This document shows positions 1 to 12,887 of a stretch of 17,946 nt of DNA, piece by piece. Numbering within the stretch: position 1 is the first letter of the stretch; each line of letters starts with the position of its first letter. Origin of the DNA: Pavlovales sp. CCMP2436. Lineage: Eukaryota > Haptophyta > Pavlovophyceae > Pavlovales. Made by a program: the position numbers and the translations under genes. The stretch covers positions 272,649 through 290,594 of the forward strand of contig MU631341.1 of the NCBI GenBank assembly GCA_026770615.1, written 5' to 3'. The notes beneath the pieces are model-generated. The model saw only the letters and a list, made by a program, of their open reading frames with translations. It did no database searches and had not been told where the DNA came from.

Positions 1-117
1 CCCCCCCCCCCCGACACACACACACGTCGCTCCTTGCGTCCCCAGGTGTATGTCTCTCTCTATCTTTCTCTCTCGCTGACCACACGTCGCTCTCTCTCTT
101 AATTTTTGCGTTCGCAG

Positions 118-10675: not shown

Positions 10676-12887
10676 AAGCATGTGATAACCAAAAAGAGTA
10701 AGATTCGCGTGTGATTACAATAATTACACGAGAGATGATGTCTACAAATAATGTCTGGACCCTCGCTCGACGCAAAAGGTAAGATAGGCGTGTGATTCAA
10801 ATGAGACAAAATCTCTCGTGGACTCTTGTACCGGTATTCGACGCAGAAGGTAAGATACGCGTGTACTTAAATTGAGAAGGTGAGATAAGTGTGTAATTAA
10901 TTTAGAAGGTAAGTTAGGCGTGTCATTCAGATGAGAAGGTAAGATAGGGTAGACTCTTACACCCAGCCTATTTTGTTTTGTTTTGTTCTCTTCTTTTTGA
11001 AGATCGACCCCCGTGCGAAATAAAAAAATTGTAAATTCGCTGATTTTACAGCGGTACATGAAAGCCACCACCCTCAACGCCTAGGGCGTTTGCGGGTGTG
11101 CTGAAGGGCCATAGTAACTAACTGACGAACACAAGCATCTCGCTTCACGTCAGCGGCAAGCAGCTTAGGCACCCGTGGGCTTGAGCAATTAGGTTCCTTG
11201 GCCTGAGTGTTTCTCAACGCTTGGGTCCGGTGGAGACCTGCTTGGGAGCGGACGTTACTTTAGAAACTTGCACACATACTAGCACCCCAACCCCCCCGTC
11301 CCCGCCCCCCCCGCCCCCCCGCCGCCCTCGCAGATATGCGAGATCGCACGTTCGTCTACACCTCAAACGTCGACACGGCATTCGCGCGAGCCGGGATGGG
11401 CGGCGAGGCCGCCTTGTACGAAATACACGGTGCGCTTCCTGTCCAAATGTGAAGCCCTATTTTTGATAATAGTTCTTATAACGTCCCCCGACTTGCAGCC
11501 CGAAAGCATACGGGCATGGCATTCTGAGATACACGGTGTGCTTCTGTTATAAGCAGCTGCGCTTCATCACTCTCGTAAGAACAATAACAACAAGTAGGCA
11601 ACATCAAATGAATAAATAAAACTAATGAAACTAATGTACAACAACAATCACACGAGCAGGCAACATCCGCACGTGGCAATGCTCTAGGCCGTGCGAGCGC
11701 TCTCTCGCACACGATGGCGGCACTTGGCAGGTTGATTTTTTTTTTGATTTTTTTTTACCATTTTTAATAACCTGAGTAATATTTAGGAGGAGCTCTCTTG
11801 CGCACGATGGCAGGTTCGTCCATGTTTATTAAACAAAATTCTTGCACATTAATAGCCTCTCTTTTAGAAATTATTGGATTTTTTTTTTGAGTAATAATCT
11901 AATAATCTTTATAACAATCATAATTCCCATACTTTTTTTCTTTTTTTCTTTTGGTATAATTAGCTGTCCGACGCGCACCGCTTCGAAGTGGACCTGCAGA
12001 GCATGCGCGCGCCCGAGCGCAAGCGGCCGGCGGAGGACGCGGCTGCGGCTGCTGTGGCTGCTGCGGCTGCGGCGGCTGCTACCGCGGCTGCTACTGCGGC
12101 TGCTACCACGGCTGCGGCGGCTGATGTGGCGGTAGCTGCGGCTACTACCGCGGCTGCTGCTGCTGCTACTGCGGCTGCTGCGACTGCGGCGGCTGATGTG
12201 ACAGCTGCTACTGCGGCGGCTGCTACGGCGGCTGCTACTGCGGCTGCAGTGACTGCGGCGGCTGATGTGGCGGCGGCTGCGATGGCTGCCGGACCCCTGC
12301 CCGAAGCTACCGGACTCTCTCCCGGACCCTCTCCCGGACCCTCTCCCGGACTCTCTCCCGGACTCACAGCCGCTGCCAGCCCCGCGGGGGGGCAGCACGC
12401 CTCGCCGACAGGCGTGCCGCCCCCTCTTCCCGCCGAGCCGGCCGACCTGGGCGAGCCCAACTACCCGCGCTGCGCTCACTGCAAACGGCTGGCACGTCCG
12501 GCGATTTTGATGTTTGAGGACGAGTCGTGCGTCGAGGCCGAGTCGCGCGCATACGATGCGTGGGAGATGAGGGTGTGCGCCGGCCTGCGGAAAGACCCGA
12601 TGAAGCGCCTCGTTATCCTGGAGGGCGGCTGCGGACTGCGCGTGCCAACCGTCCGCCGCAACTCTGAGCGTCTACTCAAGAAGCTTGCGCCCTACGGCGC
12701 CAAGCTGGTGCGCGTCAACCTCGACTTCGCGGAGAGCCGGCCTTCGCTCACGCAGCACACCATCTCCGTCCGCAGCCGCGTGCTCTCCGCACTCGAGACC
12801 ATAGACCGCGCCATCGGCATACGGCTGGCGCAGGGGGCCGCGCGAAGTGTGGGCAAGGCGCGTGGCCGTCAGCTGCAGTCGGCCTGA
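6773..12887 (+). CDS. SIR2-family NAD+-dependent deacylase-like protein, spliced, with poly-Ala insert
   Basis: Exon model: 6773-6793 (possible), 7099-7868, 8237-8355, 9447-9541, 10466-10583, 11334-11429, 11660-11730 and 11964-12887 (TGA). Phases match at every join (0,2,1,0,1,1,0). An alternative start is ATG 7093. Seen: a disordered Ser/Arg/Pro N-terminus; the NAD motif GAGFSADSG (about 7790); TYAELCDPLWL; FVYTSNVD (11357); IHGN with the presumed catalytic His across 11429/11660; zinc ligands WQC and PC (exon 11660), then RCAHC (about 12465); ARPAILMFEDE; and VILEGGCGLRVPTVR replacing the usual GTS region. The common Gly after NVD is Thr. Known: sirtuins remove acyl groups from lysine using NAD+. 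The middle (9447-10583) is poorly resolved: the second half of exon 9447 has better codon bias one frame over. Family is firm; exact exons and function are uncertain. Confidence 0.8.
6794..7098 (+). other. Possible first intron of the SIR2 gene
   Basis: ATGGCGCCTGAACCTCCGATG (6773-6793) is followed by GTGAGT, a good donor. CGATGCAG at 7098 is a possible acceptor, and the join is in frame. The interval is C-rich with repeated cccgccact and gctaac words. If translation starts at ATG 7093 instead, this would be 5' leader. Confidence 0.4.
7460..7550 (+). repeat. In-frame exonic tandem duplication in the SIR2 N-terminus
   Basis: gagcagcaggccgcc occurs at about 7461 and again at about 7527, each followed by a cgccccgcag word. 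Between them gatcgaattct occurs twice, about 15 bp apart. The frame is preserved, giving repeated Ser/Asn/Arg/Pro-rich peptide in the disordered region before the SIR2 domain. Confidence 0.7.
7869..8236 (+). other. SIR2 intron with internal duplicated C-rich acceptor-like block
   Basis: GTAGGT donor at 7869, CCGCAG acceptor at 8236, phase 2. The block ttcgcctgtgctgataactg (about 8033) recurs at about 8107 (ttcgcctgtgctgactgcg). The second copy ends in CCGCAG, a decoy acceptor about 105 bp before the real one. Confidence 0.7.
8376..8585. repeat. TA/CA/TG microsatellite
   Basis: Long (TA)n runs broken by short acaca, gacagacata and tgtgtg blocks. The segment around tacagacatacatatgcata is itself repeated near 8490 and 8531. 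Confidence 0.95.
8627..9120. repeat. Direct repeat pair within the SIR2 intron (offset about 363 bp)
   Basis: acttagcagcagggctatag (8636) matches acttagcggcagggctatgg (8999). Both continue to gtagatacataattaactgt and then, after a gap, to tgtgcgctgca / ggtgcgctgca. The two copies are clearly diverged. They look like a dispersed element or an old local duplication. Confidence 0.75.
8832..8912 (-). repeat. Dispersed repeat, inverted relative to 861-945
   Basis: The reverse complement of this segment aligns with 861-945 in the ferlin intron, sharing words such as tgtgtgctcgggga, ggtcctgga and gggacaga. I estimate roughly 80% identity by eye. The core ccggagacggtctcccgg is nearly palindromic. 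Confidence 0.75.
9293..9463 (+). repeat. Duplicated acceptor plus exon start of the SIR2 gene
   Basis: 9293-9332 and 9424-9463 align over about 40 bp with about seven differences (ccaacgcaagggtgctcg versus ccaacgcaggggtgcttg). The downstream copy is the one that splices in frame; the upstream copy is a degenerate acceptor-exon edge 131 bp earlier. Confidence 0.85.
9542..10465 (+). other. SIR2 intron with several decayed exon copies
   Basis: GTAATA at 9542, TTTTTTACAG at 10465. Three exon-like copies begin TTAGATG at 9889, 9972 and 10351 and share gcacgaccggctgag or its relic. The last two are each followed, after an AT-rich gap, by acag(c/c)(t/c)gagcagccgcg (about 10214 and 10465). The copy at 10351-10384 could be a real 34-nt exon (GT at 10385, acceptor at 10470), but then the preceding exon must end earlier, at 9482 or 9485. 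Confidence 0.55.
9889..10500 (+). repeat. Local segmental duplication of an exon-intron-exon unit
   Basis: The unit around 9960-10240 repeats around 10340-10485. Both start cattagatg, contain cgaccggctgagcag, then taataat(a/g)gaaatac and actactattatt-like filler, and end in tttttacag plus gagcagccgcg and ctcgacgatg/gtcgacgatg. A third partial copy of the left end lies at 9889. The upstream copies are decayed. Confidence 0.75.
10138..11112. repeat. Dispersed repeat pair at 10138-10187 and 11061-11112
   Basis: gccaccacccctcacgccta (10139) resembles gccaccaccctcaacgccta (11062). Both continue to ggcg, a gtgtgt/ggtgtg word and gg(a/c)cat. The two short GC-rich copies sit in different introns of the SIR2 gene. 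Confidence 0.65.
10574..10950 (+). repeat. Array of about seven splice-donor copies
   Basis: The exon end and donor at 10574-10598 (gacgcagaag|gtaagatacg) are followed by copies near 10693, 10769, 10839, 10874, 10903 and 10933. All contain a version of agaaggtaagatacgcgtgt with a few changes. The copies near 10769 and 10839 also keep the exonic cgacgca(g/a)aag. The first copy gives the phase needed to join the exon at 11334. Confidence 0.88.
10584..11333 (+). other. SIR2 intron carrying donor copies, TA microsatellite and C-rich acceptor tract
   Basis: GTAAGA at 10584, CTCGCAG at 11333, phase 1 (G + AT gives Asp). A TA run fills 10605-10672, the donor array covers the next 270 bp, and the end is a pure C-rich tract with one acceptor. 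No independent gene is seen. Confidence 0.65.
11420..11548 (+). repeat. Duplicated exon end and donor (SIR2)
   Basis: gaaatacacggtgcgcttcc (11420) recurs as gagatacacggtgtgcttct (11526). The first gives the in-frame exon end at 11429; the second is a decoy about 106 bp into the intron. Confidence 0.8.
11593..11667 (+). repeat. Duplicated acceptor and exon start (SIR2)
   Basis: agtaggcaacatc (11593-11605) precedes agcaggcaacatc (11655-11667). The second is the working acceptor before GGC AAC ATC. Both are preceded by acaacaa-type sequence. In the first, the corresponding AG is still present (gtag). Confidence 0.75.
11696..11817 (+). repeat. Duplicated exon end and donor (SIR2)
   Basis: The exon end gctctctcgcacacgatggc...ggcag|gttg (about 11699-11733) recurs in shortened form as gctctcttgcgcacgatggc followed by aggttcg (11792-11817). 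The second copy still has CAG|GTT and could act as a competing donor. Confidence 0.8.
12030..12400 (+). repeat. Ala-rich and SPGP-type repeat insert inside the SIR2 zinc module
   Basis: GCG/GCT-rich triplet repeats encode about 80 residues that are mostly Ala with Thr, Val and Asp, followed by Ser-Pro-Gly-Pro repeats (about 12315-12365). It lies in frame between the first zinc Cys pair (exon 11660-11730) and the second (C-x2-C near 12465), so it would loop out of the small zinc domain. The Ser-rich open frame on the other strand is a shadow of this repeat. Confidence 0.9.

Follow-up and report, generated by a model that had tools for sequence, protein, structure and literature searches.

Two genes with splice junctions repeated inside their introns

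We analyzed a 17,946-nucleotide (nt) stretch of DNA from the haptophyte Pavlovales sp. CCMP2436 (hereafter the window; positions 272649–290594 of one contig in a genome of 119,351,458 bases and 703 contigs) that contains a ferlin-like gene, a sirtuin gene, and a zinc-finger reading frame (Table 1). Introns of the first two genes hold degenerate copies of nearby splice sites together with the adjoining exon edge, which we refer to as echoes. The finding is real and recurs in other genes of the same genome, and its best reading from the sequence is that introns lengthen through tolerated tandem duplications spanning exon–intron junctions.

All eight introns of the ferlin-like gene are in phase 0. 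Residues 870–1290 of its product match ferlin relatives at 24–29% identity, C2 domain matches in the product fall below the Pfam cut-off, and scans of the ferlin piece against viral sequences and genome contigs led nowhere. Spliced frames of the sirtuin gene are continuous within each of two parts, N and C, with a linker (9540–10466) outside both. When the sirtuin C-terminal exon was searched, the single named relative retrieved came from Diacronema lutheri, a pavlovalean haptophyte, with 67% identity across 48% of the query. The last sirtuin exon also contains an alanine-rich repeat expansion (12039–12289) that, by eye, is not in the D. lutheri relative P0002.

Table 1. Genes, source segments, and echoes in the window (scores are followed by the number of shuffles reaching them).
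Feature	Position	Strand	Basis
Ferlin-like gene, partial at 5′ end	118–6349	+	Nine exons, single open frame throughout
Ferlin-like exons	118–237, 964–1131, 1301–1744, 2152–2259, 2592–2795, 3030–3164, 3447–3659, 3739–5253, 5369–6349	+	
Weak echo of ferlin acceptor at 118	34–49	+	Pair 34–49/106–121; straddling score 22, four exon bases, 1/200 shuffles
Source: end of ferlin exon 964–1131, donor, and intron start	1109–1189	+	Self-comparison, end-to-end alignment
Echo adjoining 1109–1189, donor destroyed (CAG|CC)	1190–1265	+	Mean column identity 85%; exon-only score 36, 0/200 shuffles
Echo of ferlin acceptor and exon start at 2592	2498–2523	+	Pair 2498–2519/2587–2608; exon-only score 25, 0/200 shuffles
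Echo of ferlin exon end 3148–3164 with donor	3324–3342	+	Pair 3148–3167/3324–3342; score 27, 0/200 shuffles
Sirtuin gene, model open at 5′ side	7546–12887	+	tblastn of D. lutheri P0002; spliced frames
Sirtuin exons	to 7868, 8237–8355, 9447–~9540, linker exon(s), 10466–10583, 11334–11429, 11660–11730, 11964–12887	+	
Echo of sirtuin acceptor and exon start, adjoins real copy 9333–9463	9250–9332	+	Straddling score 34, 0/200; exon-only score 19, 2/200
Sirtuin linker region: small exon-like segment three times (9887, 9976, 10347) and following acceptor with exon start twice (10207, 10457)	9887–10490	+	Self-comparison only: 9887–9933/9976–10051/10347–10437; further pair 10207–10240/10457–10490
Source of donor array: end of sirtuin exon 10466–10583 and donor	10570–10605	+	Self-comparison
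Donor echoes at 10698, 10768, 10836, 10875, 10904, 10934	10698–10946	+	Self-comparison; 10836 also in boundary test and codon comparison
Echo of sirtuin donor 11429/11430	11526–11547	+	Pair 11420–11438/11526–11544; straddling score 29, 0/200; exon-only 15, not significant
Echo of sirtuin acceptor at 11660	11581–11605	+	Pair 11577–11605/11640–11667; straddling score 24, 0/200; exon-only 16, not significant
Echo of 11699–11718 (sirtuin exon ending 11730)	11792–11811	+	Exon-only score 30, 0/200 shuffles
Zinc-finger reading frame		−	

The window was compared with itself after masking of low-complexity sequence, pairs with a score of at least 22 were kept, and tests of each boundary followed. An initial annotation of this DNA had proposed that splice boundaries are duplicated into the adjoining introns, and self-comparison recovers every place that it listed except 3438–3446, with the pair 34–49/106–121 being weak. 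The ferlin pair 1109–1144/1190–1229 and the sirtuin pair 9270–9332/9401–9463 are well supported, as are the remaining pairs and the donor array in Table 1, and end-to-end alignment of 1109–1189 with 1190–1265 places the larger changes in a homopolymer part. The segment 3438–3446, at the 3′ end of ferlin intron 6, matches the previous exon end at 9 of 10 bases and could be chance. The same intron contains a 27-nt in-frame segment (3314–3340) that lies between AG and GT and ends GKQ like the preceding exon; this segment is a possible cassette exon born of duplication.

Direct local repeats exceed the background

Local repeats scoring at least 26 were counted against eight shuffles that preserve local dinucleotide content. 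The window contains 30 direct local repeats, against a shuffle mean of 1.75, and a single inverted one, against 1.1 expected. Sequence outside the window, which consisted of 26 fragments of the same genome (~76 kb), yielded 72 direct repeats against 8.3 expected and 16 inverted repeats against 7.1 expected, the latter about a twofold excess. The direct excess outside the window is not all of the echo type, because some of the direct repeats there resemble coding repeats. A set of 10-kb stretches, one each from contigs C1–C20, provided 30,336 usable bases, 14 of the 20 being wholly masked.

With the window and other loci pooled and coding repeats included, direct pairs scoring at least 28 have a median spacing of 137 bp, and 61 of 80 lie within 50–200 bp. 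The copies are thus local, as initially described, though spaced somewhat more widely than the 60–130 bp first proposed.

Exon edges recur in the introns of independent genes

Kinesin genes served as a second sample, obtained by family search rather than echo search and chosen because the motor domain fixes the exons. Ten of 15 kinesin contigs were used; C195, C168, C102, C126, and C61 were dropped because no exon-flanked intron was identified there. The spliced models of C115, C200, and the sirtuin read through cleanly, with C200 aligning to KIFC3 and Ncd, C115 to CENP-E (residues 43–216 in one piece, the last stretch separately), and the sirtuin model to the D. lutheri sirtuin. Homology and reading frame set a total of 76 boundaries in 43 introns (39 donors and 37 acceptors; 27 in the window and 49 in kinesin loci). 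Not counted among the 76 are the sirtuin linker introns (9540–10466) and additional acceptor-like copies in C467, where the exons could not be placed; copies are plain at these sites.

In an exon-only test, the last or first 36 exon nt at each boundary were compared with the boundary's own intron, with 200 shuffles per boundary and with two controls, namely the inverted orientation and exon pieces taken 80 nt further inside the exon. Where a boundary had no identified partner exon, a flank of up to 400 nt was searched. At a score of at least 26, direct matches occur at 14 of the 76 boundaries, whereas inverted and exon-interior pieces each match at 0/76; at a score of at least 22, the corresponding counts are 18, 1, and 4 of 76. 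The copies thus include exon bases and are not splice consensus alone, as the initial annotation had maintained.

The kinesin loci alone give 11/49 direct matches at a score of at least 26, against 0/49 inverted and 0/49 interior (p = 5e-4). The window alone gives 3/27 direct, 0/27 inverted, and 0/27 interior matches at this score and 5/27 direct matches at a score of at least 22 (Fisher p for direct versus inverted, 0.24 and 0.051, respectively). Under this strict test, the window's 27 boundaries are only suggestive, and the proof rests on the kinesin set. At least one significant copy is present in 16 of the 43 introns, and all 15 boundaries with under 150 nt of searched intron stay below a score of 26.

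Queries that straddle the junction were scored as passing at no more than 2/200 shuffles, no more than 1/42 other introns, and at least four exon bases. Such queries pass at 25 of the 76 boundaries, and for 22 of these 25 the match spans the junction. One of the passes, the donor of C165 intron 1, probably owes its match to the acceptor echo in that intron. Within the kinesin loci, the exon end at 1042 of C200 recurs twice downstream within the intron, C165 has a significant copy at five of six boundaries, and echoes are also found in C115, C412, and C467. Echoes are thus present in 7 of the 12 genes examined (the window pair and the ten kinesin loci).

Clear copies abut, and intron interiors also carry copies

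Copies clearly abut end to end in four of nine aligned cases: the ferlin intron 1132–1300, C467 (units of 143 and 148 bp), C165 intron 1 (149 and 147 bp), and the first two copies of C200 intron 3 (108 and 98 bp), where a third copy retains the exon part. The sirtuin segments 9250–9332 and 9333–9463 also abut, the second copy carrying an AT-rich insertion. This arrangement is a tandem duplication whose unit includes the splice junction and, together with the straddling matches, bears out the earlier proposal of tandem duplication across splice sites.

We also probed exon and intron interiors for copies scoring at least 26. Direct copies were found for 16 of 810 exon-interior probes (inverted, 8), as against 38 of 344 GC-richer and 42 of 350 AT-richer intron-interior probes (11–12%), part of the intron-interior count being the intron half of straddling copies. 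With few copies in exon interiors and many in intron interiors, targeting of junctions is not shown. The suggestion of a continuing genome habit at boundaries is supported in that echoes recur in other genes; copies of this kind are also found away from junctions.

A 164-bp intergenic tandem duplication in the window (14096–14423), with abutting copies that are 95% identical, may be a young case of this type of event.

Echoes diverge roughly as non-coding copies would, and picked intact sites match real ones in strength

Codon positions and AG|GT motifs were compared for 22 echo boundaries. These comprise the 18 strict matches, minus the C165 intron 1 donor (removed because its match coincides with that intron's acceptor echo), plus five boundaries supported mainly by straddling queries (the sirtuin intron 2 acceptor, the donor and acceptor of sirtuin intron 11430–11659, the C165 intron 2 donor, and the C200 intron 1 donor). 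Mismatches between exon and echo amount to 12/187, 13/195, and 37/191 at codon positions 1, 2, and 3, roughly as expected for one drifting copy and one coding copy that changes at silent sites (p = 0.08 versus the limit of about 2:1:1 in favor of third positions). Divergence ranges from C200 intron 3, in which 39 of 40 aligned exon bases are the same, to C165 intron 2, in which 10 of 50 have changed. In our judgement, divergence has obscured the breakpoints of the duplications.

Splice-site strength was scored for 20 hand-picked echo sites with an intact dinucleotide (11 donors and nine acceptors). This list omits disrupted or unaligned sites (ferlin 1190, C467, C115 intron 4, and the third C200 copy), the C200 GC donor, and a number of additional echoes from C165 and the sirtuin array; for the sirtuin 9318 site, an AG shifted by one base was used. 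Mean strength is 6.29 for these 20 echo sites and 6.11 for real sites (p = 0.65). The initial picture of long introns that hold decoy sites is borne out. The echo is at least as strong as the real site for nine of 11 donors and three of nine acceptors, and use of the echo site would bring a stop or frameshift in 19 of the 20 cases.

Tolerated tandem duplication as the probable source of echoes

Frequent short tandem duplication, tolerated where it crosses splice junctions, best explains the echoes, and we assign this explanation a probability of roughly 0.8. The genome would undergo frequent tandem duplication of short stretches, mostly of 50–200 bp. Within a coding exon, such a duplication would usually wreck the protein and be purged by selection. 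A duplication spanning a junction would leave the protein intact if the outermost sites were still used (the upstream copy for a donor and the downstream copy for an acceptor), and it would be tolerated because these outer sites would still give the same mRNA. The inner copy, consisting of a splice site and exon edge, would stay in the intron and decay, and introns would in this way lengthen stepwise and gain decoy sites. A general process filtered by selection is the simplest reading of the sequence. The echoes themselves would presumably be neutral, and the mutational source could, by analogy, be something like the filling-in of staggered double-strand breaks ahead of end joining.

Several points weigh against this explanation. 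The boundaries were placed by hand after the repeat list had been seen, and five of the ten kinesin loci (C414, C696, C75, C108, and C281) have no significant echo. Three of the nine alignments could not be followed beyond the edge, and one is cut by a masked stretch. At the looser score of at least 22, exon interiors yield 78/810 direct copies and 58 inverted ones. The intergenic comparison covers ~3 kb of the window, its results are uneven, and it is too small to judge by or, on its own, to place the process outside genes; it gives 0/174 direct matches (inverted, 6) for GC-richer probes without the 14096–14423 duplication, 15/212 with it, and 4/292 direct and 7 inverted matches for probes of all GC contents. 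Third-position mismatches lie slightly above the expectation for a neutral echo (at most ~2:1:1). Donor echoes are no weaker than the real donors, contrary to what selection against decoys would lead one to expect of decaying copies. The rule that the outer sites are used in splicing is, moreover, one that we infer from sequence.

An alternative is that exon–intron junctions are themselves duplication hot spots, for example through nicks or polymerase stalling where a GC-rich exon meets an AT-rich intron. For 61 boundaries the searched intron spans 150 nt or more, and 14 of them carry an echo, about twice the rate for intron-interior probes. However, intron-interior copies are frequent too (80/694 probes), boundary and interior counts are not independent, and boundary pairs are easier to detect because one copy is kept by selection. 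We therefore regard hot spots as unlikely. Similarly doubtful is a scenario for this haptophyte lineage in which splice junctions would be growth points hit repeatedly by tandem duplication, introns would lengthen by a straddling ratchet, and the many strong donor echoes would serve stepwise splicing with an unchanged mRNA as the outcome.

Under the Rogers model, echoes would be left over from the origin of introns through duplication of an AGGT segment within an exon, a route to new introns or sliding boundaries that the initial annotation had also raised. For 33 complete introns, the intron start was compared with the next exon start and the intron end with the previous exon end over 8, 10, 12, and 16 nt. 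At 10 nt there is no average excess across these introns (starts, 3.18 matches observed versus 3.19 permuted; ends, 3.55 versus 3.45), and boundaries with echoes show no enrichment of AG|GT (10/22 versus 20/54 others; p = 0.61). Ferlin intron 8 and C115 intron 1 are exceptions at 10 nt, both with a start match of at least 75% (two introns against 0.10 expected, p = 0.001); the same tail gives p = 0.15, 0.058, and 1 at 8, 12, and 16 nt. The match of the ferlin intron 6 end to the previous exon end (9/10 bases) compares with 0.25 expected (p = 0.23).

The C115 intron (oriented 1749–1836; loci L040/L042) begins GTACGGGCAAG and the next exon begins GTACGGACAGA, a match at 9 of 12 bases. It splits the codon before YGQ, a position at which C165, C200, C108, and C414 have no intron, and it may be a recent gain. 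Most echoes, by contrast, carry intron flank as well as exon, and the intron thus predates them. Lacking both the average excess and the AG|GT enrichment, intron birth by AGGT duplication is rejected as a general cause and is quite improbable as the origin of the echoes, with one or two single introns fitting this route.

Echoes could also be functional, serving alternative or stepwise (nested, recursive) splicing and perhaps tuning expression via frameshifted transcripts. The strength of the picked echo sites, which for donors often exceeds that of the real site, and the stops or frameshifts that their use would bring are consistent with such a role. The codon-position pattern nonetheless fits a non-coding copy, and broken sites exist (ferlin 1190–1265 and C467). 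Two-step splicing also requires an AG left at the junction, which only 6 of the 11 donor echoes have. We consider a functional origin more improbable still.

Templated insertion during break repair, or insertion of a transposon or introner, might have carried exon pieces into introns, and the shortness and locality of the copies and the twofold inverted excess outside the window would fit this. Clear copies abut end to end, however, and templated insertion is rejected because inverted exon-edge copies scoring at least 26 are absent at the 76 boundaries. An introner-type element is rejected for one sirtuin intron, since 500 nt around its donor array match only their own place in the genome at E ≤ 1 in a search from which simple repeats and frequent words are excluded. 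Insertion is accordingly a very remote prospect. Chance similarity, splice consensus, or assembly error has a negligible probability: AT-rich introns and simple repeats inflate matches, but chance and consensus are rejected by the exon-only test and the shuffle, inverted, and interior controls, and the copies differ at many sites, unlike assembly duplications.

Relation to known modes of intron change

Tandem duplication is well described as a source of introns, in potato RdRp (PMC4974935), in Drosophila (PMC2891723), and in a review (PMC3443670). The potato duplication also crosses an intron–exon boundary and, as here, the duplicated stretch carries splice signals. In the potato and Drosophila cases a new intron is born, whereas here existing introns seem to be lengthened, in 7 of 12 genes and with no requirement for AGGT.

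Fill-in duplications at DNA breaks are likewise direct, abutting, and short (PMC8355091); they have been studied in mammalian cells after break induction, where overhangs can be as short as 43 bp, whereas the units here are mostly 50–200 bp. In the stwintronisation of Lipomyces, a donor is likewise duplicated inside an existing intron, and break repair with fill-in has been proposed as the cause (PMC7138796). The Lipomyces units comprise 4–7 nt at the donor and two-step splicing has been shown by complementary DNA (cDNA), while the echoes are known from sequence alone. The genome paper for D. lutheri (PMC8379373), in the passages covered here, gives intron counts and nothing of the echo kind. 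No description of such a genome-wide habit was among the matches listed for the open literature (titles and abstract openings), which is weak evidence of novelty.

Introners are dispersed families that continually change intron content in protists, and they have reportedly been studied in Amoebophrya and Micromonas. Introners are dispersed at many loci, whereas the copies described here are local; a continuing change of intron content is common to both.

Intron lengthening without transposons is hard to see once duplications decay, and several stages of decay seem to coexist here in ordinary genes. The rate of boundary-spanning duplication and the spliceosome's disregard of nearby decoys of equal strength would thus become directly measurable. 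Echoes also constitute a warning for gene finders, in that they resemble exons and splice sites.

Further features of the sampled sequence

Two GC-AG introns were found among the 39 donors, at window position 1745 and at position 215 of C200 (oriented). A dispersed repeat at 14025–14100 has at least 44 matches, obtained from 40 scored candidates out of 1,440 at first look, its copies being mostly 93–95% identical, and inspection by eye showed resembling sequence in kinesin contigs C115, C412, and C108. On the minus strand, 15925–16778 holds an array of about nine 90-bp units that code for C2H2 zinc fingers.

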